This document shows positions 12,349 through 64,000 of a stretch of DNA of 64,000 bases, one piece after another. The position numbers were made by a program, and so were the translations under genes. Every line of letters begins with the position of its first letter. Position 1 is the first letter of the stretch. Below the pieces are notes generated by a model. That model was not told where the DNA came from. It made no database searches and saw nothing but the letters and a program-made list of their open reading frames with translations. The stretch comes from Hoeflea phototrophica DFL-43 (GTDB lineage Bacteria; Pseudomonadota; Alphaproteobacteria; Rhizobiales; Rhizobiaceae): the NCBI RefSeq assembly GCF_000154705.2, contig NZ_CM002917.1:62001-126000 (forward strand). Reading direction: 5' to 3'.

Positions 12349-13004
12349 GATTGGCCAACCCTGTGGACTTCTCCGCCCGCAGCGCCCGCGTCGGCCTCAT
12401 CATGGGTGACCAGCACAACCGGCAGGCCTGCGCAGCGCGCCTTGGAGAACACCATCTGCCGGGTCTGGTCACGCAGATGGGCATCAAGCTTGGAAAACGG
12501 CTCGTCGAGCAGCAGCAGTCTGGGTTGCGACAGCAAGACCCGTTGCAGCGCCACCCTTGCCTTCTGCCCGCCTGAAAGGGTGTCCGGATCGCTGTTTCCG
12601 AACCCCGCAAGGCCTGCATCCTCAAGCGCCGCCTCGGCCATGGCCCGGCGTTGCTTGCGTCCGCGCACCGTGTCCGGGATTGCAATCGCAATGTTGTCGG
12701 CGACACTGAGATGGGGAAACAGCAGCGGGTCCTGAAACAGGATGCCGGCATGACGCTTCTCTGCCTCAAGGGCAATCAGATCGATACCATCAACATAAAC
12801 ACCACCGCTTGCGGTAAAAGCCGGGTCGAGAAAACCGCCGAGATAAGCCAGAAGCGTCGATTTGCCTGATCCGGAGGGTCCCATTACCGTCAGCGTTTCG
12901 CCGCACCTTATCCGGGCACTGATCGAAACGAGCTCCCGGCCTTCAAGCGCGATGCGCACATGGTCCAGAACCAGTCCCTGATTGTCTGTCATGCTGTTCA
13001 TCAT
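12345..13004 (-). CDS. ynjD: ABC transporter ATP-binding protein, YnjD type
   Basis: A short (219-residue) ATPase of the YnjBCD importer family, acting at the inner membrane face. It has Walker A GPSGSGKST, signature LSGGQKARVALQRVLL, Walker B LLLLDEP and the switch His in VLVTHDEAD. There is no regulatory C-terminal domain. Its start overlaps the stop of the permease gene (TAATG) and its end overlaps the hrpB start, so all three are translated as a coupled unit. A second ATG one codon in is an equal start candidate. The substrate of this family is not established. Confidence 0.85.
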   Translation of the reverse strand: MMNSMTDNQGLVLDHVRIALEGRELVSISARIRCGETLTVMGPSGSGKSTLLAYLGGFLDPAFTASGGVYVDGIDLIALEAEKRHAGILFQDPLLFPHLSVADNIAIAIPDTVRGRKQRRAMAEAALEDAGLAGFGNSDPDTLSGGQKARVALQRVLLSQPRLLLLDEPFSKLDAHLRDQTRQMVFSKARCAGLPVVLVTHDEADAGAAGGEVHRVGQS

Positions 13005-14695
13005 TACACCCGCAAACCGCGCCGGTTGCGGAATATCAAGCCTGGCAGCCCCATTGCAATGGCGAAGGCGATAAATGGCAGCAGTGTCTGCATGAAGGCA
13101 TAAACGCCAATCACCCTGCGGTTGCCGCCCGCAGCCAGCGCCACGGCCTCCGTCGTAACCGTGGTCAGACGGCCGGCGCCGATCAGCAGGGTTGGCAGAT
13201 ACTGGCCCACTGAAACCGAAAACCCGACCGCGGCTGCGGTCAAGATCGCGCGTGTGAGCATCGGCAGTCTGATGTGCAGAAGCGCCCGGCCCCGGCTTAT
13301 GCCGAGCCCGGCCGCGATCTGGTCGTGCCGCCGGTCATGGGCGCGCCACGGGTCGCTGAGCGAAAGGAAGACATATGGAAGGACAAACACCAGATGGGCC
13401 AGCACCAGCGCGCCGAAGCTCGCGTCGACACCGAGCCAGATTGAAAGCACCTGCAGCCCGAACATGAAGGAGATCTGCGGCACGATCAGGGGAAGATAGA
13501 TCAGCAGCAGAGCGTCGCGCCCGCGCCCGGTTTCATATTCACGTTCCAGGCACAGGATGGTCAGAACCAGGGCGATCAACGTCGACAGACCGGCCACGGC
13601 CAGCGTGGTTGCAAGCGGTCCACTCATCCTTGGCATGGCCTGCATCCACGATCGCATACTGAAGTTCGCAGGCAAGGCATCGGGGAACTGCCAAAGCCCG
13701 GAAACAGACCAAAGCGCCAGGATCGCAATTCCGCCAAACACCACAAGCGCCGAGCTCGACATCATTAGCCGTGCCAGGATTCGAACAATCAGGTCCCGGC
13801 GCATGCGCGCCCCTCTGTCGCGGACAAGGCACACAGCCAGAGCGCCGATGCGTTCGATCACAACCCAGATCAGCAGTGCGGCAAGGGTGACGCTCAATTG
13901 CATCACCGCGCCGGCCGATGCCAGAAACCGGGTTTCAAGATTGGGATCGTTCATCCAGTCAATCAACCGGACCGGCAGGGTGGGCGGCAGGTGCGGCCCC
14001 AGGATCAGTGCCACATCAACCACCGATGTCGCATAGGCCACCACGGCGAACACTGCGAGCCGGATCTGCCGGTAGAGTGGCGGCCACAGGAGGAATGTAA
14101 AGCTGGCGATCCGGCCATAGCCGAGCGAACGTCCCAGCCGCATGGTCTCGGAGTGCCGGGTCTGTGGCAGAGCTGCCAGTGTCACCAGAAACAGGAACGG
14201 GATTTCCTTGACGATCAACCCGGCCATCATCGACAGTGCCATCGGGTCGTTGACGATCAGCAGGTCGGGGGGCCGGTCAAGCCCGGTGGCCCATGGTGAG
14301 ATCAGCCGCATGATCATGCCTGACGGTGCAATCATGAAGGCCAGCCCGAAAGCCGCCGCGGCGTGGGGCACCGACAGCAATGGCGAGATCAGCCGGCGCA
14401 CCCGCGAGAAGGTCGTTGTTCCCAGATCGCTGGCGACAAAGGCCGCCACGGTGCCGAGCGAAATCAGCGTGGTGACCAGCCCGATCAGGATCGACAGCAG
14501 CGCCGAGCGGGCGATTCCAGGCTGTGCGCCAAGCACGCCGAAATGCTCTGTGGTGAAATGCTCGCCGCCCAGCTCCGGCAGGTAGCCAAACGCGGGAAGC
14601 GCGGTTCCCGCGAGCCCGAAGACCAACGGCCCCAGAAGGACGGCGAGCGTGAGCGGCGGCGCCACTCGCGCCAGGCGGACACCGCCCACCTTCAT
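13004..14695 (-). CDS. ynjC: ABC transporter permease, fused double-domain, YnjC type
   Basis: A 563-residue inner-membrane permease with about twelve membrane segments, carrying two binding-protein-dependent permease domains in one chain. Each half contains an EAA-like cytoplasmic loop (RLGRSLGYGRIASFTFLLWP in the first, AAGLGISRGRALLHIRLPML in the second). This fused layout matches YnjC and ThiP/FbpB-type permeases. Start choice is uncertain. An AGGAG touches the ATG at 14695 directly, while the GTG two codons later (14689) sits 6 bases after it, a better spacing. The permease lies 146 bases after the binding-protein gene. Confidence 0.85.
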   Translation of the reverse strand: MKVGGVRLARVAPPLTLAVLLGPLVFGLAGTALPAFGYLPELGGEHFTTEHFGVLGAQPGIARSALLSILIGLVTTLISLGTVAAFVASDLGTTTFSRVRRLISPLLSVPHAAAAFGLAFMIAPSGMIMRLISPWATGLDRPPDLLIVNDPMALSMMAGLIVKEIPFLFLVTLAALPQTRHSETMRLGRSLGYGRIASFTFLLWPPLYRQIRLAVFAVVAYATSVVDVALILGPHLPPTLPVRLIDWMNDPNLETRFLASAGAVMQLSVTLAALLIWVVIERIGALAVCLVRDRGARMRRDLIVRILARLMMSSSALVVFGGIAILALWSVSGLWQFPDALPANFSMRSWMQAMPRMSGPLATTLAVAGLSTLIALVLTILCLEREYETGRGRDALLLIYLPLIVPQISFMFGLQVLSIWLGVDASFGALVLAHLVFVLPYVFLSLSDPWRAHDRRHDQIAAGLGISRGRALLHIRLPMLTRAILTAAAVGFSVSVGQYLPTLLIGAGRLTTVTTEAVALAAGGNRRVIGVYAFMQTLLPFIAFAIAMGLPGLIFRNRRGLRV

Positions 14696-50755: not shown

Positions 50756-52021
50756 TCACAAGTCTATTGAAGGTTTTTTGAATGTTTCCAATGCGCTTTT
50801 CAGTTCCGGCGCATTGGCGGCATACATTTCGATATCAACGCCTTCTTTGGCTGCAGCTGCAGCTTGTCTAAGCGCAATCACGCCGGCACCAATTCCGGAC
50901 GGATGGCTCATGATGCCGCCACCTGCGCAGAAGATGAAATCGTCATTTCCCAGCAACCGTCTTGCCGGGTCTATCTGCCAGACTGTCTGTCCGGATGAAT
51001 AGACCGGCATGGCGAGATGCTGAGGGCCGTCGCCCTCGCAGACCGGCTGTTGAACCGATCGTGCCGATTGGGCGACGACCTCATCGCTTTCCGTGAACTT
51101 GCTCGCCAGTCCGTTGACATGGAGATGGTCTGCACCCGCCAGCCGCCAGAGTTTCTGAAAGGCGGTGAAACTGATGCCGATATCGGGAGAACGGGAAAAA
51201 AGGCCCCACCCTGCACGGTGCCCATGGACAATCATCGGGCTGCGATCCCGCACTGCGCGAAGACCGGTAAGGCCAACGGAGTTCATGCAGACCATGGCGC
51301 ATATGCCATCATGTTCCTGCAACAGATCCAGATTGCGCCACATCTGGTCAATTTCATCGGTGATGTTGAACGCATACATCACCCTTTTGCCGGTTTTTTC
51401 CGCATGTAGATTGATGACCCTGGAGACGAGTTTCAGCCGTTCTTCGAAAGGGCAATGCGGGCCGTTTGCCTGCAGTTCATCGTCCTTGATGAAATCAATC
51501 CCGGCTTCGATAAGCGTTTGTACGAGCTCAGCCGTCTCGCTTGGGCTCAAACCGACACTGGGCTTGATGATGGTGCCGATGACTGGCCCTTCGTGACCTC
51601 CCATCAGTTCCCGTGTTCCATCTGCGCCGAACTGCGGCCCCGGATGGGCCAGGGCGAATTCCTTCGGCAAACCTATGTCCAAAAGGCGGATCGCAGAAAG
51701 CTCAGCCAGTTCAAACAGATTTCCGGCCAATGTCGAAAACAGGCTTGGGAGGGAGACGCCAAAATTGTCCAGCGACCAGCTGATGGTGACCGTCCCTCGT
51801 TCATATGCGGGGCCACTTTTGCGGCTGGGCAGCGAGGGGTTTGGTGACGAACCTGTAATGGTTAAGCTTTCAATGCGGGCTGCGGAGCGCTCGCGAAGCT
51901 CGTCTGTCTCAGCCGCCAATCGCGTAAAGGTGCCGGTGGATTGTTCACCAGCCAGAACCGTCGCGGCGTGGTCCACGCCCAACGGTGACTCGATGTCATA
52001 AGTTGCTGTAATCCGGTTCAT
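50756..52021 (-). CDS. oiaX: RuBisCO-like protein, 3-oxo-isoapionate-4-phosphate decarboxylase type
   Basis: A 421-residue form IV RuBisCO-like protein. The activating Lys and metal residues are present in FIKDDE (Lys179, Asp181, Glu182), with HGHRAGWG (His268, Arg269) and CAGGG (phosphate loop). The KPK motif of true RuBisCO is KPS here (Ser155), and loop 6 is shortened around NGLASKF, so it cannot be a CO2-fixing RuBisCO. Its ATGA overlap with a DUF1537 kinase gene, and the ApnO-type gene next door, match OiaX, which decarboxylates 3-oxo-isoapionate 4-phosphate to L-erythrulose 1-phosphate. Family certain; exact reaction inferred from context. Confidence 0.8.
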   Translation of the reverse strand: MNRITATYDIESPLGVDHAATVLAGEQSTGTFTRLAAETDELRERSAARIESLTITGSSPNPSLPSRKSGPAYERGTVTISWSLDNFGVSLPSLFSTLAGNLFELAELSAIRLLDIGLPKEFALAHPGPQFGADGTRELMGGHEGPVIGTIIKPSVGLSPSETAELVQTLIEAGIDFIKDDELQANGPHCPFEERLKLVSRVINLHAEKTGKRVMYAFNITDEIDQMWRNLDLLQEHDGICAMVCMNSVGLTGLRAVRDRSPMIVHGHRAGWGLFSRSPDIGISFTAFQKLWRLAGADHLHVNGLASKFTESDEVVAQSARSVQQPVCEGDGPQHLAMPVYSSGQTVWQIDPARRLLGNDDFIFCAGGGIMSHPSGIGAGVIALRQAAAAAKEGVDIEMYAANAPELKSALETFKKPSIDL

Positions 52022-53403
52022 CTTCGTCCTCCACCACTTCGGATCCAGCCGAAATAGTCCTTGCTTCCCATTTGCCCGCCTTTCAAGGCGAGCTCCAGTC
52101 CATCCATGGGGCCGTTCGCATGCGCCCTGAAAATCGAGGCGCCCGGTATGGTCGGTGCCAAGGCGGTCAGCGCAAAAATTCCCAATTGGCGGGTTGCGTG
52201 TCCCGAGGTGTCCCCGCCCGACACAACGGCTCGTCTTGTGCCGGTTCGAAGAAGTACGGTGTGAAGAACCCGCCCCAGCGCTTCGCCAATCATCTGGTTC
52301 GCTGATGACATGTCATGAGCTGAGTGAGCAACCGCCGATTTGAAGGCGTCGACTGCCGGATCATCGGGGCCTTCAGCCGTGTGAATGAGCGGATCCTTGT
52401 TTGCTGCAATGGCATTCAGTGCAGCAGCCACAGCGCGGTCGATTTCGCGTTCCACCGCTTCGGTGCCGCCACATGCGGCCGCGGCGTCGAACTCGATGGA
52501 GGCAAAGCCATTGGATTTGGACCAGGCTATCTGCTCTGCGGTCGTTGGCGACACGGATCCGGAAACCACGACCATGGGCTCTGCTTCGCCGATGCCTTCC
52601 GGAGCCTCAGCGACAGGTATCAGTCCGCTTTCCTGCCAATGGCGCACTAGGGCATATGTCACGCCCTGCGAGCCAACGACAAATGGATTGGTGTGCCGTT
52701 CATTCCAGATCAGGTGTCCCGCTGCGGATTCGGATGATGCATCCATGCAATCCAGGGTGATCAGTGTAATTCGATCGTCTCCGTCGGAAGGCAGCGAAGG
52801 ATAGGTGCCTGGACGTTTAGCCAACGCCTCCAGCGAAAGACAATGCACATCGAGCCGCTCAGACTGCTTTGCCACATGCCGCGCAACATCGGATTCATTC
52901 ATCGGTGTCACGGGATGGCGAGACATCACCGGATGCCGGTCCAACCGGTAGATCTCGTCGCCCATCCCCGCAAACAGGTGCCCGAAAGCCTGATAACGGC
53001 GCATCTGTGGCGCGGCGACCAGAAGCGGAACGGTCGTTGGCGAAAACAGATCATGCCCGATCTCGATTGCGCGCCCGATCGATCCGACCTCCGGTGAGGA
53101 GTCGAGTGTCGAACAGACCTTGTAGTGCACCAACAATGGTTTGAGGCGGCTCAACTTCGCAAAAACTGCCGGAAGTTCCGTGGCCATCCAACCGGGTGAT
53201 TGCGCCCGTGCGGTTGAAGCTACGCCAATCCCTTTCAGATCAGGAAAGCGTGCCAACTGCTCTTCAGTCGGGGCCTCAAGGAACAGCATTGAAGGCAGTC
53301 CGGCAAAGGCGAGAACCTCCATAACGGCAGATGCGCCGGTGAAGTCATCGCCATACCAGGCAATCAGTGGGCCATCAGGGAGCGTTTTGCTGGGAGCGTC
53401 CAT
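52018..53403 (-). CDS. oiaK: DUF1537 (four-carbon acid sugar) kinase, 3-oxo-isoapionate kinase type
   Basis: A 461-residue kinase of the DUF1537 family, which phosphorylates four- and five-carbon sugar acids. The N-terminal substrate domain begins IAWYGDDFTGASAVMEVLAF with the DD-x-TGA motif. The C-terminal nucleotide domain has VVSGGDTSG and KGGQMGSKDYF, both diagnostic. Its stop overlaps the start of the RuBisCO-like gene by four bases (ATGA), so the two act together, as in the known OiaK-OiaX pair: phosphorylation of 3-oxo-isoapionate, then decarboxylation. Divergent from apnO across 116 bases. Confidence 0.78.
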   Translation of the reverse strand: MDAPSKTLPDGPLIAWYGDDFTGASAVMEVLAFAGLPSMLFLEAPTEEQLARFPDLKGIGVASTARAQSPGWMATELPAVFAKLSRLKPLLVHYKVCSTLDSSPEVGSIGRAIEIGHDLFSPTTVPLLVAAPQMRRYQAFGHLFAGMGDEIYRLDRHPVMSRHPVTPMNESDVARHVAKQSERLDVHCLSLEALAKRPGTYPSLPSDGDDRITLITLDCMDASSESAAGHLIWNERHTNPFVVGSQGVTYALVRHWQESGLIPVAEAPEGIGEAEPMVVVSGSVSPTTAEQIAWSKSNGFASIEFDAAAACGGTEAVEREIDRAVAAALNAIAANKDPLIHTAEGPDDPAVDAFKSAVAHSAHDMSSANQMIGEALGRVLHTVLLRTGTRRAVVSGGDTSGHATRQLGIFALTALAPTIPGASIFRAHANGPMDGLELALKGGQMGSKDYFGWIRSGGGRR

Positions 53404-53437
53404 GTGAATTGGCCCAATTTCAAACCGTAGGGGGTTG

Positions 53438-53449
53438 ACACAATTGTGT
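53438..53449. promoter_or_regulatory. 12-base palindrome in the oiaK-apnO divergent promoter
   Basis: ACACAATTGTGT is a perfect palindrome overlapping a TTGACA (53435-53440) in the 116-base gap between divergent oiaK and apnO. The gap is AT-rich and also holds AATTGGCCCAATT near oiaK. It is a good candidate site for the nearby GntR-type regulator, but no second copy of the same 12 bases was found in the locus. Confidence 0.4.
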
Positions 53450-53519
53450 AATTAGTACCTCATTATACCAGTTGTCAATTGGCTCTTGTTTCTTTCGAAG
53501 CGCCTTTGGGAGGATTACA

Positions 53520-54350
53520 ATGACAAAGCTCGCCTTGTTTGGCGCTGGTGGAAAAATGGGCATGCGCCTGGGTGCGAACCTGGCAAAAGCACCTGATTTC
53601 GAGACATTGCACGTGGAAGTCTCAGACGAGGGGCGTGCCCGTGTTCGCGAGGCTTACGGCGTTGACTGTGTGGATACCGATGTTGCTCTCGACGGTGCAG
53701 ACATCATTGTCCTGGCCGTGCCTGATACCGCGATCGGCAAGGTTTCACACGCCATCATCGACAGGGTGAAGCCGGGCGCCATGGTGTTTGTTCTTGATGG
53801 CGCTGCTCCCTTTGCCGGCCATCTGCCCGAGCGAGCCGACATTACATATTTCGTATCTCATCCGTGCCATCCGCCGATCTGGAACGATGAAACGGAGATG
53901 GAAGCCAAGCGCGATTACTTCGGCGGTATCGCTGCCGCCCAGGGCATCGTCAACGTGTTGGTGCAGGGTCCGGAAGAAGATTATGAATTGGGCGAACGGG
54001 TCGGCAAGACCATTTATGCACCGGTTGTGCGCTCCCATCGCGTCACGCTGCAGCAATTCGCACTTCTGGAACCGGGCCTCTCGGAAACCGTCAATGGCTC
54101 TCTGATGAAAGTCCTGCGAATGGCCATGGATGAGGTTGTCAGGAAAGGCGTGCCCTACGATTGCGCCCGGGATTTCCTCCTTGGTCACATGAACATCATG
54201 GGTGCGGTGATGTTCGACCAGCATCAAGGTGTCTTTTCTGACGCCGCCAACAAGGCAATCGAGTTCGGAATTCCGGTGCTGATGAAAGATGACTGGATCC
54301 GCTGTTTTGACGACGACGAAATTGCAGCAAGCGTCGATCGGATCACCTGA
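53520..54350 (+). CDS. apnO: D-apionate oxidoisomerase-type dehydrogenase (ApnO-like)
   Basis: A 276-residue NAD(P)-dependent protein with an N-terminal Rossmann fold (LFGAGGKMGMRLGANL) and a phosphogluconate-dehydrogenase-like C-terminal domain (LEPGLSETVNGSLMKVLRMA, FLLGHMNIMGAV). Characterised ApnO proteins of this family convert D-apionate to 3-oxo-isoapionate, the substrate of OiaK and OiaX encoded divergently. GGGAGGA lies 7 bases before the ATG; a frame extending to 53472 is not supported. A decayed lactonase-like segment follows downstream. The assignment depends partly on these neighbours. Confidence 0.75.
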   Translation: MTKLALFGAGGKMGMRLGANLAKAPDFETLHVEVSDEGRARVREAYGVDCVDTDVALDGADIIVLAVPDTAIGKVSHAIIDRVKPGAMVFVLDGAAPFAGHLPERADITYFVSHPCHPPIWNDETEMEAKRDYFGGIAAAQGIVNVLVQGPEEDYELGERVGKTIYAPVVRSHRVTLQQFALLEPGLSETVNGSLMKVLRMAMDEVVRKGVPYDCARDFLLGHMNIMGAVMFDQHQGVFSDAANKAIEFGIPVLMKDDWIRCFDDDEIAASVDRIT

Positions 54351-54770
54351 GCCAACTCTTTTCGCATATTGTCAGTCCTGAAGCGCGGTTCACTATGTAC
54401 CCATTGTGACCGGGGCTTTATTTGATTTTGGGTTCGGCCGCAGCAAGTCCCACAATGGCTGGTCCAATTGTCTGCATGGCTCAATTCCAAAACCGGATGA
54501 CCCTGTATCTTTTTGCAGCTCAATGGGGGGCTGCAGCTTGGATGGCCAATGTTGGCAGGTTTCAGACACCAGTTCCCAAAGCCTCGGGACAGTCTTTTCA
54601 TGTCTGGCCGTGGAGTGTCCTCGACATTTGTCGCTTCTGCGCTCGCAGGCTTGGCGCGTCGAGCCAGGATAGGGGCGCCGGTGGCAGGGAACTGCACAGC
54701 GAGATCTGGAAAGCGCTTGAGGACATTTTGGTTGGCATGGTCAGTTTTTTCCCGAGTTCAACCGAAAGTG
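54351..54770. other. Non-coding or decayed stretch after apnO
   Basis: Open frames exist on both strands (for example 54422-54937 plus and 54224-54697 minus), but none starts with a ribosome site, has recognisable domains or shows even codon use; they overlap one another. I read this as decayed DNA belonging to the lactonase-like remnant that follows. Confidence 0.45.
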
Positions 54771-54989
54771 TTCCCCAGCGGAGATATCGGATTTTGCCAG
54801 CCATGGCCTTTGGTCGGCACCTTGAAGCAGCTGGCCTTGGCCGCGGGGGAACCGGTGCTTTCAATCCGGCAAGAGAACGGCTTGGCACGGCTTCATGTTG
54901 GAGAAGCAGAATTTGTGGTGAACCTGACCGGAGTTGAGCGTTCTGGGCTTGGACCCTATGAATGGCAGGCAAAAATCAAACAGGCTTAG
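54771..54989 (+). pseudogene. C-terminal remnant of a lactonase- or glycosidase-like gene
   Basis: About 70 residues ending in a TAG read like the last part of a TIM-barrel hydrolase with a C-terminal beta domain: DIGFCQPWPLVGTLKQLAL, GEPVLSIRQENGLARLHVG, EFVVNLTGVERSGLGPYE. The NLTG plus GPYE ending is typical of such C-terminal domains. No start and no catalytic part exist upstream. In apionate loci the gene found here would be the D-apionate lactonase apnL, so I suspect an apnL relic. The stop overlaps the convergent GntR gene. The identity is a guess from pattern and context. Confidence 0.4.
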
Positions 54990-55711
54990 CGTTTGCCGGC
55001 TGAAATGAAGCTGGATTGTGAACGATTGAGATGTGCTTCCATAGCCCGAACGGCGCCTTCGGAATCATTGGATTTGAGAAAGCTCAAGATGGTTGCATGC
55101 TCGCCGAGTGTCGTTTCCTCGCGGCCAGGCCATATCAGTAGCGAAGAGTGATACTCAAACAGCCATGTCAGCATCATCTCGGTAATCGAATAGATGAGAG
55201 GATTTGTGGTGATGGATGCAATGCGTGTGTGAAAGGCAATATCGGCCTTCATAAACGCTTCCGGGCTTTTAATTTGTGAGCGCTGATCTTCGATCAGCTT
55301 GGCCAGTTCCGCAGCATCCTTGGAGGTACATTTCTGGGCTGCTATCTTGATCGTGCCAAGTTCAAGAATGTGCCGGACTTGTTTGAGGTAGTCGATATTG
55401 GCCGGCTCGCTGGAAAGCAGCAGCTTTGCGATGTCGTCTAGCTGATTGAAAGCCAGGCCAGCGGTGAGGGCGTTTACACGGCTGCGCCCGCCATGTGTGA
55501 TCGTGATCAGTCCCTTGCTCTGCATTGATTGCAATGCTTCGCGCACTGCCGGACGGCCGACACCGAAGAGCTCCATCAGATCGCGTTCGGAGGGAACGGT
55601 GTCTCCGGCTGCAAGTTCTCCACTCGCAAGCATCTCACGAAGGCGTTCAAAAACCTGGTCAGACAGTTTAAGACGGACAATCTTGCTGTCTGCGGCATTG
55701 GTTTTGTTCAT
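54986..55711 (-). CDS. GntR family regulator with FCD domain (FadR type)
   Basis: A 241-residue transcription factor. The N-terminal winged helix has the GntR signature VFERLREMLASGELAAGDTV, PSERDLMELFGVGRPAVREAL and a wing LITITHGGRSRV. The C-terminal FCD ligand domain carries the metal-binding His pattern (ADIAFHTRIA, the ARMLTW-like helix and LGEHATIL, then MEAHLNR). It would bind a sugar acid or pathway intermediate and lift repression. It stands in the centre of the locus and probably controls both arms. Upstream is a spaced inverted repeat, a possible own operator. Confidence 0.92.
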   Translation of the reverse strand: MNKTNAADSKIVRLKLSDQVFERLREMLASGELAAGDTVPSERDLMELFGVGRPAVREALQSMQSKGLITITHGGRSRVNALTAGLAFNQLDDIAKLLLSSEPANIDYLKQVRHILELGTIKIAAQKCTSKDAAELAKLIEDQRSQIKSPEAFMKADIAFHTRIASITTNPLIYSITEMMLTWLFEYHSSLLIWPGREETTLGEHATILSFLKSNDSEGAVRAMEAHLNRSQSSFISAGKR

Positions 55712-55751
55712 ATCAAACTGCTTTCCGTTCGGCGCAGATTGGCCAAAAGCT

Positions 55752-55778
55752 CAACTTATCAACAGATGCTACAAGTTG
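55752..55778. promoter_or_regulatory. Spaced inverted repeat upstream of the GntR gene
   Basis: CAACTTAT and ACAAGTTG form inverted half-sites (7 of 8 matching) with 11 bases between, 41 bases before the GntR start. This could be an autoregulatory operator. I found no clear second copy at the other promoters of the locus. Confidence 0.3.
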
Positions 55779-55856
55779 ATCAAAAAAGCAAGAATCCGAA
55801 CAGGTCAGATGAGTTGCGAGTTGTGCGTCTGGCGCCCAATCGTGTTCTGAACCGGA

Positions 55857-57308
55857 TTAGCGGCAGGCGCGTGCGATGGCGATCTTCCATTCGTTGCGCG
55901 CGCCGCGCCGCGCCGTCGCATCGGTGGCGGGATCGAAGATTCGGATCTCTTTGGCTCCGGCCACAATCGGCATTCCAAGCGCCTCGGCAGCCATGCTGGC
56001 AACACCGAAAGCGCCGATCTCGGCAATTTCGCGCCGCTCCACCGGTTTGCCGATGAAATCGGCCTGAAGCTGCATCAGGAAGGAATTGGCGGAGGCACCG
56101 CCATCGGCGCTCAGCCCGTTGAGCGGGTGGCCGAGATCCTGTTCCATTGCCTCCAACACATCGGTCACCTGGTGCGCGATGGCCTCAAAGGTTGCGCGCG
56201 CCAGATGCGCCGGGCGTGATCCCAGCGACAACCCGCTGACCAGACCACGGGCGTCGTCCTGCCAGTGCGGTGCCCCCAGCCCCGCGAGTGCCGGCACGAA
56301 ACAGACCCCGCCATTGTCGGAAACCTGCAGGGCCAGATCCGAGAGCTCGGCGGGTCCATTGAGCCCAAGCATCTCCGCCATGAAAGCTGCCGCCTGTGCG
56401 GACACGGTGATATTGCCTTCAAGCGCATGGGCAGTGTTGCCATCCTGCGTCCAGGCGATGGTGCCCGAGAGGCCGTGGCTTGAGAGGGTGCGTTGCCGGG
56501 TCAGGGTCATCAGAGATGATCCTGTTCCGTAGGTCGCTTTGACCTTTCCAGGCCCGCGCACACCATGACCGAACAGCGCTGCATGGCTGTCACCCATCAT
56601 CGCATGGATCGGGACGCCGGCGGGCAGGGTTGTGGCGCCTTGCGCGGTTTCGCCAAACCGGGCATCGGAGGCCATGGGTGTGGCAAGACAATCAATCGGT
56701 GCACCAAAAATCTCACCGAGCCGGGGGCTCCAGGCGAGCCTTTCGGTGTCGAACAGAAGCGTGCGCGAGGCGTTGGAGTGGTCCGTGGCAAACACCGCCC
56801 GGCCGGTGAGGTTCCAGAGCAACCAGGAATCGACGGTTCCGGCCCGCAGCCGCCCGACCCGGTGGAGATCTTCAGGCTCGGGGCGGTTCTTGAGAACCCA
56901 GGCAAGTTTGGATGCAGGAAACAGGGGGTTGATGCCGAGCCCGGTCAATGTGCTGACCTCATCGGAATGACCGGCTTCAATCAGCGCGGCGCATTCATCA
57001 GCCGTGCGCCGGCATTGCCAGATTGGCGCCGGCCCGACTGGCTCGCCGGTTGTTGCGTCCCAGACCACCAGGGTCTCGCGCTGGTTGGATATCCCGATGG
57101 CCGCGATTTCGGTTTCGATACCGGCACAGGCGTCGCCAATGACTTGACGCGTGGTGGCCCAGATCTCCGAGGCAGATTGCTCCGCCCATCCCGGATGCGG
57201 GTAATCCGTGTGGCAGGATGCTGAAGCGCTTCGTACGACCTCGCCATCCTGCGCAAACACCAGCGCCTTGGTGTTGGTCGTGCCCTGATCGATGGCCAGA
57301 ACAAACAT
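55857..57308 (-). CDS. FGGY family carbohydrate kinase
   Basis: A 483-residue sugar kinase of the FGGY family, closest in wording to glycerol kinase-like members. The phosphate-binding loop DQGTTNTKALVF opens it; other motifs are ISNQRETLVVWD, the catalytic Asp in GDSHAALFG, GTGSSLM and ADGGASANSFLMQLQAD. It lies 2 bases after the C-terminal transketolase gene and ends the four-gene minus-strand operon. In this context it would phosphorylate the ketose made by the isomerase; a D-apulose kinase (AplK) role is my preferred hypothesis, with other ketoses open. Confidence 0.85.
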   Translation of the reverse strand: MFVLAIDQGTTNTKALVFAQDGEVVRSASASCHTDYPHPGWAEQSASEIWATTRQVIGDACAGIETEIAAIGISNQRETLVVWDATTGEPVGPAPIWQCRRTADECAALIEAGHSDEVSTLTGLGINPLFPASKLAWVLKNRPEPEDLHRVGRLRAGTVDSWLLWNLTGRAVFATDHSNASRTLLFDTERLAWSPRLGEIFGAPIDCLATPMASDARFGETAQGATTLPAGVPIHAMMGDSHAALFGHGVRGPGKVKATYGTGSSLMTLTRQRTLSSHGLSGTIAWTQDGNTAHALEGNITVSAQAAAFMAEMLGLNGPAELSDLALQVSDNGGVCFVPALAGLGAPHWQDDARGLVSGLSLGSRPAHLARATFEAIAHQVTDVLEAMEQDLGHPLNGLSADGGASANSFLMQLQADFIGKPVERREIAEIGAFGVASMAAEALGMPIVAGAKEIRIFDPATDATARRGARNEWKIAIARACR

Positions 57309-57310
57309 GG

Positions 57311-58279
57311 TCAGCCCGTCTTGCGTGCGAGAGCTCGGCGTGAAGCATCAGCGATGCCAATCGGGGTCAGCCCGTTCTGTTCGAACAGCCAGTCCACCGA
57401 ACCGGTCGTCTGGAAGGTCTTGAAGCCGACCCGTTCTACCGGCACCGGTCGGTTCGACGATGTCAGTTCCGCAACGGCGCCACCAAATCCGCCGCGCACA
57501 AGCGCCTCCTCGCAGGTCACGATCGCGCCGGTTTCCTCGGCAGCCGCCAGAACGGCTGCCTCGTCGAGCGGATTGAGTGTGTGGACCGAGAAAACCCGTG
57601 CCGAGATGCCGTCACTTGCCAGAGCATCAGCTGCGGCCAATGCAATATGCACGATCGTGCCCGAGGCAAGGATCGTCACATCATCTCCCTTTCGCATCAA
57701 TCGTGCCGTGCCGGGTGTGAAATCGCGGCGGCCATGAGCATCCGGTCCGAGATCAGGCACCTGCATCCGCGACAGACGCAGATAGACCGGGCCCTCATGC
57801 TCTGCCGCCCACCGCACCGCCATCTCCGTTTCCCACGGGTCGGCTGGTGCAATCACCGTCAGCGGCTCAAGCGCGCGAAGCCAGGCAAAATCCTCGATGG
57901 AATGATGGGTCGCGCCAAGTTCGCCATAGGCGATGCCGGAGGACTGGCCGACCAGCTTCACATTGTATCCGGAATAGGCAATGTCGGCCTTGATCTGTTC
58001 CAACGCCCGGCCGGTCAGAAAACAGGAGGCGGCCGACACGAATGGAATGCGCCCGCCATTGGCCAGCCCGGCGCTGACACCAACCATGTTCTGTTCGGCA
58101 ATGCCGACATTGACCAGCCGGTCGGCGAAAGCGTTCTGAAAACCGCCCAGATTGGACGAACCGACCGAATCATTGACCACTGCCACGATCCGTTCGTCGT
58201 CAGCCGCCAGCGTCTCAAGCGTCGTTGCCCAGGCCTTGCGGCAGTCGAACAGACCTTCCACTTTTTCCACTGCGTTCAT
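57311..58279 (-). CDS. Transketolase, C-terminal subunit
   Basis: A 322-residue protein holding the pyrimidine-binding and C-terminal domains of a split transketolase. The catalytic pyrimidine-contact Glu lies in NVGIAEQNMVGVSAGLANGG; the substrate-side His pair is suggested by ELGATHHSIEDFAWLR. The C-terminal domain ends EALVRGGFGGAVAEL and KTFQTTGSVDWLF. Its start overlaps the stop of the N-terminal subunit gene by four bases (ATGA), so the subunits are made together. Apulose-4-phosphate transketolase (AptB) is a candidate, given the kinase and isomerase in the operon. Confidence 0.85.
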   Translation of the reverse strand: MNAVEKVEGLFDCRKAWATTLETLAADDERIVAVVNDSVGSSNLGGFQNAFADRLVNVGIAEQNMVGVSAGLANGGRIPFVSAASCFLTGRALEQIKADIAYSGYNVKLVGQSSGIAYGELGATHHSIEDFAWLRALEPLTVIAPADPWETEMAVRWAAEHEGPVYLRLSRMQVPDLGPDAHGRRDFTPGTARLMRKGDDVTILASGTIVHIALAAADALASDGISARVFSVHTLNPLDEAAVLAAAEETGAIVTCEEALVRGGFGGAVAELTSSNRPVPVERVGFKTFQTTGSVDWLFEQNGLTPIGIADASRRALARKTG

Positions 58280-59112
58280 CGGCTGAGCTCTTTCATCGCC
58301 AGTTCGAATTCGTCGTCATTGGGCACGCCATGGTGCCACTTGGCCTTGTCTTCCATGAAGGAGACGCCCTTGCCCTTGATCGTGTTGGCGATGATGCAGC
58401 GCGGACGGCCTTGTGCCGGTGCCGCGTCCAGCGTGTTGAGCAGCTTTGCATGGTCGTGCCCGTCAACCTCGATCACGTCCCAGCCGAATGACCGGTACTT
58501 CTCACCCAGCGGATCGAGCGAGACGGTGTCCTCGGTGCGGGCGCCCTGCTGCAGCCGGTTGCGGTCGATGATCAGCGTCAGGTCTTGAAGTTGCTTGTGG
58601 CCCGCTGTCATCGCGGCTTCCCAGTTCGATCCTTCCTGCTGCTCGCCGTCTCCGGTAAGCACGAAGGTGCGGTGGGCGGAGCCGGACATCTGGCCGGCAA
58701 TGGCCATCCCCAAAGCGATTGGGAAGCCATGGCCAAGCGGCCCGGTATTGGCTTCCACGCCCGGAAGATAGTTCCGGTTGGGGTGCCCGTTCAGGCGCGA
58801 GCCCGGCCCCATATAGGTTTTGAGCCAGTCCTCGGGAAAATAGCCTGCAGCACACAGCACAGTGTAAAGTGCGCCTGTTGCATGTCCTTTCGACATCACG
58901 AAACGATCCCGCTCCGGCCAGTCCGGCTTTACTGGGTCATAGCGCAGCACTCCGAAATAGAGCGTCGCGAGTATATCGGTGGCTGAGAAATCACCGCCGA
59001 TGTGCCCCAGCTTCTTGCCGTGCACCATCTCCAGCGCCCTGCGGCGCATCCAGTTGGCTTTCTGCCGGATCTGCGGCAGTCGCGTGTCTTCGTCTTCAAG
59101 CGGCATCGCCAT
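58276..59112 (-). CDS. Transketolase, N-terminal (thiamine diphosphate-binding) subunit
   Basis: A 278-residue protein corresponding to the thiamine-diphosphate-binding half of transketolase. The cofactor motif GDGEQQEGSNWEA with Asn in DRNRLQQGA is intact, as are GHIGGDFSATDIL, SKGHATGALYTVL and GPLGHGFPIALGMAIAG. It pairs with the C-terminal subunit encoded directly after it. Split transketolases are often dedicated catabolic enzymes and not the pentose-phosphate one; an AptA-like role (apulose 4-phosphate plus glyceraldehyde 3-phosphate to dihydroxyacetone phosphate and xylulose 5-phosphate) fits the locus. Confidence 0.86.
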   Translation of the reverse strand: MAMPLEDEDTRLPQIRQKANWMRRRALEMVHGKKLGHIGGDFSATDILATLYFGVLRYDPVKPDWPERDRFVMSKGHATGALYTVLCAAGYFPEDWLKTYMGPGSRLNGHPNRNYLPGVEANTGPLGHGFPIALGMAIAGQMSGSAHRTFVLTGDGEQQEGSNWEAAMTAGHKQLQDLTLIIDRNRLQQGARTEDTVSLDPLGEKYRSFGWDVIEVDGHDHAKLLNTLDAAPAQGRPRCIIANTIKGKGVSFMEDKAKWHHGVPNDDEFELAMKELSR

Positions 59113-59121
59113 GCGGTTCCC

Positions 59122-60588
59122 TCAGAAACGGTTTGGAATGAAAAGCTGCGGCTCGGGATCGCCGCCGTGATGATAGGTTGCCCAGCCGAGATAGCGCGTG
59201 ACCGCCTCGTTGACGACATCGGCATGTTGGCCCCGGACCATCGCCACGTGATGCTCGAACCCATTCTGGGTGACAAAGCGCATCAGCCGGCGCAAATCCT
59301 TGACCCGTGTGACCGCAATCCCGCCATCCATGCCGAATGGGTCATCGGTGAACTCACCTTCGCCCACATAGCATTTGAGCCGGCCTGCATTGTCGTCCGA
59401 GGAGAGGCGGAAATAGGTCATGTCGCCTGCTTTCACCTTGCCCTTGACTGCACCAAAGCACTTGCCGCGCCCGATGGTCTCACCAAGCACATCGAGCTCG
59501 GAGATTTCAGGTGTGTCGCCGATAAAGCTCTTGGGATAATTGCCGCAATGGGTGCACACGCACATGTCGGGGGAATTGCCGTAATTGTTGTTCCAGTCGA
59601 GAATGGCCGCCGGCGCGCCGGACGCGAGTGTGAGCGCATACATCGAAACGGCCCCCATCACATCCACTTCGCAGGCAGACGGCATCAGCTCCTCGCCCAT
59701 CATCGACATGGTCAGGCAGGTCGCGCAGCCAAAATTGTCCTGCAGCGAACGCCAGCACTGGATCGCCGAGGCGTCACACTCGTTCTCGTCAATCCAGCGG
59801 TTGACTGCCAGCGTCCATTTGGCCTGGGTCAACACCTGTTCGGATTTGATGTAAGTCGGGATCGTGCCGTAGGCCTCGATCTTGCGGAGTTTCTCCAGCA
59901 ATTCAGGGGCGTCGTCGGCGATCTGCCCGGCTGCATGCATCATTTCCGACAGATCGACCGTAACCACCGTTACGCCACTGGTCTGCAGGAGCTTTTCTGA
60001 ATAGCGCATGGTCTGAAACGGTCCGGTCCGGGCGCCGATGGCGCCGATCCGCGCCCCCTTTAGTCCGCCAACTGTCCGGCAGATGCGCGCGAAACGATCC
60101 AGGTCCGCGGCGAATTCATCCGATTCGATATCGACCGTATGGTTGGTCGTTTCGGTGAAAGGGACGCCATACTGCCAGAAATTATTGGAGATCGAGATCT
60201 TGCCGCAGAAGGCATCCCGCCGCGAATGAACGTCGACCTTGTCGATCTCGTCATTGCAGGCCTGGAGCAGGATGGGCACATCGAGTTTGGCCCGGCCCAC
60301 CAGTTCGGCCACGGCAATCTCGTCGCCGAAATTGGGCAGGCAGATGACAATCCCGTCGATCTTGTCCCGATTGGCCGCAAAATGGTCCGCGTAAAGCTTG
60401 GCGTCGGAGATTGACTGCACTGCACCATTGTCCGTTGCTTCAAAAGGGAGCGTTACGGCATTGATGCCGAGCCTCTCCATTTGCGCCAGAACGGCATCGC
60501 GCGCCTGCTTGCAGGGCGCTGGACTGAAGAACGCCCGGCTGCCGATAACGACGCCGAGTGATACCGGCCGGTTGACTGTGCGATCCAT
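59122..60588 (-). CDS. L-fucose/L-arabinose isomerase family protein
   Basis: A 488-residue protein of the fucose/arabinose isomerase fold, which interconverts aldoses and ketoses with a metal ion. Visible family features are DGIVICLPNFGDEIAVAEL, ARIGAIGARTGPFQTMRYSE, AIQCWRSLQDNFGCATC (metal-ligand region) and SACEVDVMGAVSMYAL. It is the first gene of the minus-strand operon ahead of the split transketolase and kinase, and divergent from the importer, so it should isomerise the imported sugar. GGGGGGAG precedes the ATG. Which sugar it uses is not visible. Confidence 0.82.
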   Translation of the reverse strand: MDRTVNRPVSLGVVIGSRAFFSPAPCKQARDAVLAQMERLGINAVTLPFEATDNGAVQSISDAKLYADHFAANRDKIDGIVICLPNFGDEIAVAELVGRAKLDVPILLQACNDEIDKVDVHSRRDAFCGKISISNNFWQYGVPFTETTNHTVDIESDEFAADLDRFARICRTVGGLKGARIGAIGARTGPFQTMRYSEKLLQTSGVTVVTVDLSEMMHAAGQIADDAPELLEKLRKIEAYGTIPTYIKSEQVLTQAKWTLAVNRWIDENECDASAIQCWRSLQDNFGCATCLTMSMMGEELMPSACEVDVMGAVSMYALTLASGAPAAILDWNNNYGNSPDMCVCTHCGNYPKSFIGDTPEISELDVLGETIGRGKCFGAVKGKVKAGDMTYFRLSSDDNAGRLKCYVGEGEFTDDPFGMDGGIAVTRVKDLRRLMRFVTQNGFEHHVAMVRGQHADVVNEAVTRYLGWATYHHGGDPEPQLFIPNRF

Positions 60589-60632
60589 GGTTTTCTCCCC
60601 CCAAAGATTGCGAAAACTTTCGATATTTTTTG

Positions 60633-60659
60633 AATATATAGTTTGTCGATCTGTGGCAA
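60633..60659 (-). promoter_or_regulatory. Possible promoter of the isomerase-transketolase-kinase operon
   Basis: On the minus strand TTGCCA is followed after 15 bases by TATATT (or after 17 by TATTCA), 45-70 bases before the isomerase start. The 257-base divergent gap (60589-60845) is unusually AT-rich, mainly around 60605-60645 and 60715-60770, and also contains a TTGACA facing the importer at 60763. No gene is present in it. Confidence 0.35.
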
Positions 60660-60749
60660 CCCCCAGCTCTGCTCTTATGGACTGAGATACCCCAATACAT
60701 GGAGTTGATGCTTAATTTAGGGCTTTGTAATGAAAATAAACAAAATTAA

Positions 60750-61796
<1,047 letters not shown>

Positions 61797-61804
61797 CCTC
61801 CCCG

Positions 61805-61834
61805 GGGAGCCTGAGCCCTGGGCGTCAGGCTCCC
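61805..61834 (+). other. Intercistronic hairpin after the binding-protein gene
   Basis: GGGAGCCTGA and TCAGGCTCCC form a perfect 10-base-pair stem with a 10-base loop, 8 bases after the binding-protein stop. It is not followed by a T-run, so it probably stabilises the upstream mRNA or partly attenuates expression of the downstream genes. Confidence 0.6.
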
Positions 61835-61858
61835 TGGTGATCTTGAAGGCGTGCGTGC

Positions 61859-62500
61859 ATGAAACAGGCGATTCCTGTCATTCTCATTTTGTGCCTTGCG
61901 GCCCTTCCGGGCTGCAAGATCATTCATGAGAGTGAAAAGACGGAAGTGGTATCGGTAGGGCCTGAGGGTGATGCTGCTCGCAATCAGGCACGTCTCGAAG
62001 AGACATTCGACAGCCAGCTTCTGCCATTGATAACGACCGGACCGCTCGATGTTGCCGGGCTTCGCGCCGCACTTGCCTCGGACGGGCTCGAAGCCGCAGG
62101 CTCTGCCCATGGCAACCAGGGATCCGGCCGGGGGGCAGCCTGGAACTTCCCCGTTCAGGGCGACGGCATCATCGTCGCAGCCAAACTCGACACCAGCGCG
62201 CGCACCGTGTCCGTCGATGTCGATAAAGACGGGGTGGGCGATGTCACCGTGCAATTGGGGCCGGTGATCCGCGGCACTGCATTGCGGGATGTCGCGCCTT
62301 TCTACAATTTTGATGATTTCCGCGATCAGATCGAGTTCGCCAAACTGGCCCGTGCCATCAATGACCGGATCAAGCCGCTGCTCAAGGTGCCGGACGGCGA
62401 TCTCGTCGGCATGACCATGTCCTTTGTCGGCGTGACGCCTCTCAAGTCTCCTCAGGAGACCATGGTTGTTACGCCCGTTGAGATGAGTTTCGCGAAATGA
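61859..62500 (+). CDS. DUF2291 family lipoprotein
   Basis: A 213-residue exported protein with a lipoprotein signal (IPVILILCLAALPGC, Cys about residue 19) and one DUF2291 domain, including TALRDVAPFYNFDDFRDQIEFA. DUF2291 proteins occur almost only inside sugar ABC operons, between binding protein and ATPase, as here; their role is unknown and an accessory role in uptake is my inference. It overlaps the ATPase gene start by four bases (ATGA). The start ATG is preceded by GAAGG. Confidence 0.82.
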   Translation: MKQAIPVILILCLAALPGCKIIHESEKTEVVSVGPEGDAARNQARLEETFDSQLLPLITTGPLDVAGLRAALASDGLEAAGSAHGNQGSGRGAAWNFPVQGDGIIVAAKLDTSARTVSVDVDKDGVGDVTVQLGPVIRGTALRDVAPFYNFDDFRDQIEFAKLARAINDRIKPLLKVPDGDLVGMTMSFVGVTPLKSPQETMVVTPVEMSFAK

Positions 62501-64000
62501 GCGAAGATCACCCAATCGGGCTGTCTATCCGCGGGGCCGTCAAGGTCTATCCCGGCACCCGCGCGCTCAAGGGTGTGGATTTCGATATCCGCATGGGCGC
62601 CGTGAACGTGCTTGTCGGCGAGAATGGCGCGGGCAAATCCACCCTGATGAAAATCATCGCCGGCGTTGAGGAACTGAACGAGGGCGAGATCCTGCTCAAT
62701 GGAGAGGCAGTCACCTTCCGCTCCAAGGATGATGCGGTCCGCGCGGGCATCGGAATTGTTTTCCAGGAGCTCAATCTCTTCGCCGAGATGACGGTGGCCG
62801 AGAATGTCTTCATCGGCCGGGAGCGGGCCCGCATGGGCATCGACATCGATGGCGACGCCGAAACCGAGCAGACGTCGCTTCTGATGAAGCGCCTGGAGCA
62901 GACAATTGCACCCGATACGGTGCTGGGCCATCTCAGGATCGGCCAGCAGCAAATCGTGGAGATTGCCAAGGCGCTGGCACAGGACGTCAACATTCTCATC
63001 CTCGACGAGCCCACATCGGCGCTGTCCGCGCATGAAGTTGATGTCCTGTTCCGGGTTATCGAGGACCTCAAGCGCCAGGGCGTCGGGATCGTCTACATCT
63101 CACACAGGCTCGAGGAACTGATCCGCGTCGGTGATTACATCACCGTCCTCAGGGATGGTGAAATCACCGGTGCGCGATCGATGCAGGGCGTGGACATCCC
63201 CTGGATCGTTCACGCCATGATCGGCGACAAGTCGAAGGATTTCGCCTCCGCCACAAATCACGAGTTCGGCGTTGAAGCCTTTCGCGCCGAAGATGTCTGC
63301 CTGCCGCGGCCCGGCGGCGGCTTCATTGTCGACCACCTGTCGCTCTCCGTTCGCGCCGGAGAGGTTCTGGGGCTCTACGGTCTTATGGGGGCTGGCCGGA
63401 CCGAGTTTCTCGAATGCGTCATGGCCCAGCACCATGGCTCGACAGGACGTTACTACGTCTACGCAGAGGAGCTGCGCTCGCACAGTGTCGCCGGACGCAT
63501 CAGCAAGGGGATTGCCCTGGTCCCCGAGGACCGCAAGCGCGATGGGCTGGTGCAGATCATGTCGATCCGCGAGAACCTGACACTGTCCTCGATCCGCCGG
63601 ATTGCACGCCTGTTTCATCTTGACCCGGTCCGCGAGGTCAAGAAGGCCGCTGAATACATCAAGCGCCTGACGATCAAGGTCTCGAACCCTGAAAATCCGG
63701 TCTCGTCACTGTCGGGCGGCAATCAGCAAAAGGTCGTCATTGGCAAGGCCCTCATGACGGAACCCCGCGTTCTGCTGATGGATGAGCCGTCCCGCGGCAT
63801 CGACATCGGTGCCAAGGCGGAGATCTACCGGTTGATCCGCAAGCTTGCCTCAGAAGGTCTGGCGATTCTCTTCGTCACCTCCGACCTCGAAGAAGTGATG
63901 GCGCTCGCCGACCGGATCGCTGTCATGGCTGACGGGCGCAAGACCGGGGAGTTTCCCAACACAGCCCGTGCCGCCGACATCATTGCAGCTGCCACGCCAA
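62497..64000 (+). CDS. Sugar ABC transporter ATP-binding protein (RbsA family), cut at window end
   Basis: At least 501 residues with two ATPase domains, as in RbsA/XylG/MglA proteins that energise monosaccharide importers. Domain 1: Walker A GENGAGKST, signature LRIGQQQIVEIAKAL, Walker B ILILDEPTSALS. Domain 2 has a degenerate Walker A (GLMGAGRTE), the signature LSGGNQQKVVIGKAL and LLMDEPSRGIDIG, the usual asymmetry of this family. No stop codon occurs before the window edge; only the last residues are missing. The permease gene presumably follows outside the window. Confidence 0.94.
   Translation, partial: MSEDHPIGLSIRGAVKVYPGTRALKGVDFDIRMGAVNVLVGENGAGKSTLMKIIAGVEELNEGEILLNGEAVTFRSKDDAVRAGIGIVFQELNLFAEMTVAENVFIGRERARMGIDIDGDAETEQTSLLMKRLEQTIAPDTVLGHLRIGQQQIVEIAKALAQDVNILILDEPTSALSAHEVDVLFRVIEDLKRQGVGIVYISHRLEELIRVGDYITVLRDGEITGARSMQGVDIPWIVHAMIGDKSKDFASATNHEFGVEAFRAEDVCLPRPGGGFIVDHLSLSVRAGEVLGLYGLMGAGRTEFLECVMAQHHGSTGRYYVYAEELRSHSVAGRISKGIALVPEDRKRDGLVQIMSIRENLTLSSIRRIARLFHLDPVREVKKAAEYIKRLTIKVSNPENPVSSLSGGNQQKVVIGKALMTEPRVLLMDEPSRGIDIGAKAEIYRLIRKLASEGLAILFVTSDLEEVMALADRIAVMADGRKTGEFPNTARAADIIAAATP

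Follow-up and report, generated by a model that had tools for sequence, protein, structure and literature searches.

In Hoeflea phototrophica DFL-43, an alphaproteobacterium, a 64,000-nt stretch of contig NZ_CM002917.1 (assembly GCF_000154705.2, positions 62,001 to 126,000; hereafter the window) probably ends in two adjacent catabolic modules, a non-oxidative D-apiose operon and a shortened oxidative D-apionate module, a reading to which we assign a probability of about 0.6. The right half (55857 to ~65937, in window positions), encoding an isomerase, a split transketolase, an FGGY kinase and an apiose-type ATP-binding cassette (ABC) importer, is apparently a complete non-oxidative operon. The left half, encoding ApnO, OiaK, a RuBisCO-like protein (RLP) and a GntR/FCD regulator (FCD), would be the oxidative module.

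D-apiose would be imported by the ABC importer and converted to apulose by the isomerase; the FGGY kinase would produce apulose 4-phosphate, which the transketolase would split into dihydroxyacetone phosphate and a pentulose phosphate, the operon being controlled by a DeoR regulator. In the oxidative module ApnO would convert D-apionate to 3-oxo-isoapionate and OiaK would phosphorylate it, in the known order of the oxidative reactions and with the known products of the second. The RLP would then cleave the OiaK product, most likely to 3-phosphoglycerate and glycolate. FCD would control this module through an element at 53452-53472. The ancestral oxidative module would have included the lactonase ApnL and presumably the dehydrogenase ApsD, both since lost, and the present one would use apionate from outside the cell or from an unrelated oxidase.

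Gene content of the locus

An earlier note on this DNA had named most of the genes below and had placed the two routes side by side, reading the right half as an apiose isomerase/kinase/AptA-AptB route and the left half as an ApnO/OiaK/RLP tail. All the genes it named are open reading frames with the expected domains at the coordinates listed, and both assignments hold up, the right half by its match to Enterobacterales operons and the left by model scores and neighbours. Substrates, products and regulator sites in the list are predictions from sequence.

50756..52021, - strand: RLP of a clade other than OiaX, putative 3-oxo-isoapionate-4-phosphate transcarboxylase/hydrolase (OiaT-like)
52018..53403, - strand: OiaK-like 3-oxo-isoapionate kinase, DUF1537 (SBD_N + NBD_C); 472 bits to NF042436
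53452..53472, - strand: conserved element ACTGGTATnATnAGnTACTAA, predicted FCD operator of the oxidative arm; single match with 0 mismatches
53520..54350, + strand: ApnO-like D-apionate oxidoisomerase (PGDH_C); 389 bits to 5t57, 85-90% identity to L113, L117 and L120
~54730..54974, + strand: relic of ApnL (D-apionate lactonase) with an internal deletion and differing frames; E 1.3e-9 and 1.9e-5 with a hidden Markov model (HMM)
54986..55711, - strand: GntR/FCD (NanR-like) regulator, putative partner of the oxidative arm; 81% identity to the FCD beside ApnL in L115
55857..57308, - strand: FGGY kinase, AplK-like (apulose kinase); sub-cut-off GlpK signature, 42-46% identity
57311..58279, - strand: transketolase C half, AptB-like; 39-43% to AptB of E. 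coli, Rahnella and Sodalis
58276..59112, - strand: transketolase N half, AptA-like; 46-51% to AptA of E. coli, Rahnella and Sodalis
59122..60588, - strand: L-fucose-isomerase-family isomerase (Fucose_iso_C), putative D-apiose isomerase; 46-47% to Rahnella/Sodalis
60783..61796, + strand: D-apiose-type ABC binding protein (RbsB family); 474.7 bits to 5ibq, 65% to Rahnella/Sodalis
61859..62500, + strand: DUF2291 lipoprotein of the importer, by domain and neighbours
62497..64002, + strand: RbsA-type ATPase, running 2 nt past the window end
64023-65087 (window-equivalent), + strand: RbsC permease, beyond the window end
65113-65937 (window-equivalent), + strand: DeoR regulator (DeoRC + HTH_DeoR), beyond the window end

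The importer operon thus extends past the window end with the permease and then the DeoR-family regulator. G+C content is 0.568 in the oxidative block (0.522 in the FCD gene) versus 0.598 in the window and 0.616 in the non-oxidative enzyme genes.

Comparisons were made with 151 genomes of the family (including H. phototrophica DFL-43 itself), 385 of the class and 18 of the genus. L numbers denote loci and G numbers genomes. One set of 80 named RLP loci, the best 80 of 558 confirmed, was read with at most 9 kb on each flank; 55 of the 80 were nearly full length.

The non-oxidative operon

Of the four proteins shared with the E. coli SE15 cluster, the kinase is 42%, the transketolase N half 46%, the C half 39% and the binding protein 48% identical to its counterpart there. 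According to PMC13001218, where the SE15 proteins served as query sequences, other E. coli and E. fergusonii strains with the cluster grew on D-apiose. The adjacent transketolase halves in the window are homologous to those of this growth-tested cluster type, as looked for in AptA and AptB, and the FGGY kinase repeats the sub-cut-off model pattern (GlpK) of the E. coli and Rahnella kinases, as looked for in AplK. The isomerase is 46-47% identical to the one that Rahnella and Sodalis carry between AptB and AplK; its residues E307, D331 and H446/H447 are invariant, with a spacing that we take to be that of the metal ligands of L-fucose isomerase. Among solved structures the RbsB-type protein best matches 5ibq (474.7 bits over 284 residues), presumably a binding protein solved with D-apiose. 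It is 65% identical to the Rahnella and Sodalis proteins and 69-80% identical to those of nine importers at OiaX or RLP loci.

That the operon serves some sugar other than D-apiose is quite improbable: split transketolases do occur elsewhere with FGGY kinases and other importers (Rhizobium Pop5; L085, L086), but the score to 5ibq, the similarity of the binding protein to its counterparts in the apiose-type operons of Rahnella and Sodalis and the placement of the isomerase as in those operons argue for apiose.

The operon is rare. At 67% identity or more the isomerase was found in 4 of the 151 family genomes, its own included (24 of the 151 at E 1e-20), and matches at E 1e-60 occur in 4 of the 385 class genomes. 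It also occurs by itself: G046 of the same genus (L084) and G190 of another family (L215) carry it complete with DeoR, and the 20 kb read show no oxidative genes; G046 has no RLP at E 1e-40. Two 1.4-Mb genomes of the same class (G180, L213; G487, L214) encode an isomerase of 44-45% identity, transketolase halves, an FGGY kinase and another ABC importer, which suggests a streamlined form of the non-oxidative apiose route.

The oxidative module

Against 5t57, which we take to be an ApnO, the PGDH_C protein reaches 389 bits. It is 85-90% identical to the ApnO of three loci (L113, L117, L120) where DctP, DctQ and DctM genes lie between ApnO and FCD and an OiaK-RLP pair diverges (domains were checked in L117 and, for DctP, in L113), and 69-71% identical to that of L114-L116 and L118. 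The FCD regulator, conversely, is closest to that of L115 (81%) and shares 54-61% identity with the FCDs of the TRAP cassettes. Around the RLPs of 70-72% identity, L114 has ApsD, ApnL, ApnO, OiaK and an apiose-type importer as neighbours, and so do L115, L116 and L118, with the binding protein beyond the edge. RLP, OiaK, ApnO, ApnL, ApsD and an apiose-type permease stand together in 10 of the best 80 of 558 loci, the binding protein being visible in 5 of the 10. No isomerase or transketolase half was found at any of these 80 loci, nor at any of 25 family RLP loci.

ApnO, OiaK and RLP look intact. At columns conserved in at least 95% of relatives they show no deviation (0/79, 0/76 and 0/103, from 55, 73 and 86 rows besides the window, respectively), and dN/dS is 0.036-0.074 in 5 of 7 pairs, two giving no value, with dS near or past saturation. 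In the RLP tree the closest neighbours of the window protein are Yoonia and a member of the same family, G039, the RLPs of its own genus being placed elsewhere; from this placement and the lower G+C we infer that the oxidative block was gained horizontally. Elsewhere the genome encodes a second DUF1537 kinase (G000:C1:948732-949406, 236 bits to SBD_N); some 5 kb from it, at 953988, lies a sequence that matches the GlcD model with 359 bits.

The ApnL relic and the source of apionate

ApnO and FCD are 635 bp apart, and this gap holds fragments of ApnL that follow each other in the right order on the + strand, in different frames: 54730-54810 (residues ~385-407) and 54774-54974 (~510-576). An HMM of seven ApnL proteins ranks these two best among all six-frame pieces of the window (E 1.3e-9 and 1.9e-5; the next is 0.94), and they are still the top two with a broader 30-protein model (2.7e-4 and 0.76). 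A third piece, 54554-54616, is also in order, at an E of 0.12 that is not significant. The relic DNA is 74.7% identical over 75 bp to L118, and the ApnL query protein scores 923 bits against the ApnL model (cut-off 750), which makes it a true ApnL.

The whole genome has no intact ApnL and no close ApsD, the best of 13 ApsD matches being 29% identical, so the earlier note's statement that the window has no apiose dehydrogenase holds genome-wide as far as close homologues go. A complete oxidative D-apiose pathway, with both ApsD and ApnL, was not found. That note had let the oxidative arm start from external apionate or from a gene elsewhere. The ApnL relic shows that at least one upstream enzyme has been lost and was not simply missing from the outset, presumably together with ApsD. 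With both gone, apiose would no longer flow into the oxidative module.

The RLP and its probable product

The earlier note had taken the RLP for OiaX, which yields L-erythrulose 1-phosphate. OiaX (NF042437) is indeed its best-scoring curated model, and ApnO and OiaK are neighbours of the same kinds as in OiaX operons, but the score is 403 bits against a cut-off of 700. RLPs of 26 of the 151 family genomes pass this cut-off and a separate group lies at 380-454 bits. A tree also speaks against this label: among 133 RLPs (midpoint root) 25 OiaX rows form one long branch with 100% support, and the window protein lies outside it, in another large clade of 96 rows that includes two Xanthobacteraceae (L155, L162). 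The OiaX label was rejected on the score and the placement together.

The partner isomerases are missing too. Use of L-erythrulose 1-phosphate, as known from erythritol use, needs a second TIM and an RpiB-type isomerase. RpiB is present in all 26 OiaX genomes versus 29 of the 125 others (Fisher p 3e-14), including 2 of the 13 family genomes whose RLPs all belong to the window-type clade; 25 of the 26 OiaX genomes have a second TIM gene, and none of those 13 does. The H. phototrophica genome has no RpiB and a single TIM, which fits an RLP product that enters central metabolism directly. It also encodes a GlcD-like protein (467 bits, cut-off 568), immediately followed downstream by another match to the GlcD model, a further count against OiaX. 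On this evidence it is unlikely that the oxidative tail ends in L-erythrulose 1-phosphate. The reaction is most likely OiaT-like; OiaT is a transcarboxylase/hydrolase whose products are 3-phosphoglycerate and glycolate.

It is less likely still that the substrate of the module is some other branched sugar acid, for instance D-hamamelonate. Kim et al. in 2018 reportedly described a D-hamamelose pathway in which an RLP acts as an oxygenase. An Ochrobactrum RLP adjoins hamamelose genes, according to PMC8914248, and both RLP and OiaK of the window fall below their cut-offs. Close RLP relatives nevertheless sit with an apiose-type importer, ApsD and ApnL.

Outside both the OiaX and the window clades, a separate RLP clade (L047-L054, L220, L221) is 42-45% identical to the window RLP and paired with DUF1537 kinases of 28-33% identity; L220 and L221 adjoin TRAP genes. 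The genome itself has a second, distant RuBisCO-family match (G000:C1:2898009-2898446; 60 bits to the OiaX model).

Regulators and a conserved element

Two regulators are encoded at the locus: FCD next to the oxidative arm, DeoR within the non-oxidative operon. The 21-base element ACTGGTATnATnAGnTACTAA, between OiaK and ApnO at 53452-53472, is unique in the window when up to 3 mismatches are allowed, and 100 shuffles gave no match. Among 46 other loci scanned it is exact in L114, L115, L116, L117, L118 and L120, has 3 mismatches in L113 and 2-4 in many others; in G546 (L217) a copy with 3 mismatches lies inside the oxidative module. At up to 4 mismatches it is absent from the non-oxidative stretches L084, L215, L222 and L223, and no copy was found at the isomerase-RbsB promoter region of the window. 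FCD is predicted to bind the element as its operator. The earlier note had proposed one regulator between the arms; control of both by FCD was rejected, given the DeoR gene in the operon and the absence of the element from the isomerase-RbsB region. A k-mer search for a DeoR site led no further than to short AT-rich words, TTGACAA, and a single 9-mer that 3 of 5 regions share.

Weighing the oxidative module

Several points weigh against the oxidative D-apionate module as described. The ApnO, OiaK, OiaX/OiaT and D-apiose isomerase assignments draw on curated models and gene neighbours, and OiaK, with NF042436 as its best model, scores 472 bits where the cut-off is 700. The element is absent at up to 4 mismatches from the oxidative loci L087, L088, L090, L119, L122, L123, L137 and L139, and from L219, which covers part of both modules of G543. 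The curated ApnL model, run over the whole genome, does not list the relic site, and with one of the seven ApnL proteins tblastn also hits an unrelated place, 12765-13112 (E 0.003). The link of RpiB and TIM to OiaX may partly follow lineage, as erythritol use needs the same enzymes. With no apionate transporter in the window and neither an intact ApnL nor a close ApsD in the genome, the oxidative module may be idle.

Those absences, with ApnL reduced to a relic, also favour a rival reading in which the oxidative module is decaying and without present function, only the apiose operon mattering. The nearest RLP relative, that of G039 (L095, 87%), is degraded: its frame has a stop, the OiaK match lacks the first 86 residues, an IS110-type transposase adjoins, and no ApnO was found in the 20 kb read. 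We nevertheless give decay a low probability: ApnO, OiaK and RLP are full length, without deviation at conserved sites and with low dN/dS, the element is kept exactly, and similar pairs recur in the genus.

Pairing of the two modules in the genus

An RLP (E 1e-40) is present in 7 of the 18 genus genomes, H. phototrophica included, and the surroundings of the other six were read; the isomerase search within the genus covered 3 of the 18. The side-by-side arrangement recurs in G543 and G546, where a different oxidative module (ApnO 61%, an ABC transporter, an ApnL-like protein 35-36%, RLP 51%, OiaK 45-46%) adjoins the same non-oxidative operon (isomerase 78-79%) at its DeoR end. The H. phototrophica module is joined to the opposite end, and its RLP and those of G543 and G546 fall into separate supported clades.

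A module of the G543/G546 type without an apiose operon was found in the ~58 kb read of G549, where an SMP-30/gluconolactonase-like protein precedes the ApnL-like one (G546 has a similar protein); G548, G539 and G536 have RLPs and no apiose operon in the stretches read. We are unsure that apionate is the substrate of this type of module, because its scores are below the cut-offs (in G549, ApnL-like 412/750 bits and OiaK 545/700; RLPs of G549 and G546, 428 and 427/700). In G543 (L226, ~3-5 kb) a second transketolase pair (27-31%) and an RLP-like match (27%) lie ~2 kb past ApnO.

The opposite operon ends and separate RLP clades suggest that the pairing of acid arm and apiose operon arose at least twice; the alternative is a single pairing followed by replacement of the oxidative module. 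Tentatively, and with somewhat less than even confidence, we propose that the genus has joined distantly related copies of the acid arm to opposite ends of the apiose operon more than once, as cells meet sugar and acid together, the sugar passing through transketolase and the acid through the RLP to 3-phosphoglycerate and glycolate, each under its own regulator.

Co-occurrence of both routes on rhizobial plasmids was considered as well: in Rhizobium Pop5 the RLP and the split transketolase are on one plasmid ~141 kb apart, but the transketolase stands with TpiA and SDR genes, without such an isomerase. A literature search covering part of the apiose literature found no published description of the pairing.

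Comparison with known systems

The locus is a new variant that combines two known parts, both arms side by side. If our reading is true, two known routes for one plant sugar have been assembled as interchangeable modules. The locus would also be a good place to test the reaction of the large RLP clade outside OiaX, in a host without the isomerases that the OiaX product would need, and it cautions that neighbours alone are insufficient for calling such RLPs OiaX. In OiaX operons (e.g. L092; Sinorhizobium plasmids) the neighbours are of the same kinds, yet the RLP is distant (38-43%) and of a different clade, and the RpiB and second TIM of OiaX genomes are both absent from H. phototrophica.

Oxidative operons with ApsD, ApnL, ApnO, OiaK and RLP (L114, L115, L118; L099 on a Roseibium plasmid) share ApnO, OiaK, RLP and FCD with the window, and L114, L115 and L118 have the exact element as well. 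The window differs in having no ApsD, ApnL only as a relic, and no importer of its own for the oxidative arm. According to PMC11747546, a Rhodobacteraceae strain with this operon type grows on D-apiose. The ApnO-TRAP-FCD/OiaK-RLP cassettes of L113, L117 and L120 share with the window the closely similar ApnO and the divergent OiaK-RLP, whereas the TRAP genes are theirs alone: five TRAP proteins of L113 and L117, used as queries against the window, found no TRAP transporter there.

For the non-oxidative operon, the E. coli SE15 cluster likewise has an RbsB-DUF2291-RbsA-RbsC importer, an FGGY kinase and a split transketolase, without the isomerase; the Rahnella and Sodalis plasmid operons also have an isomerase of the same family, placed between transketolase and kinase. 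The regulator of these Enterobacterales operons is annotated 'sugar-binding transcriptional regulator', whereas that of the H. phototrophica operon is of the DeoR type. The H. phototrophica enzymes are 39-51% identical to those of the Enterobacterales apiose operons, and in H. phototrophica an oxidative module is attached.

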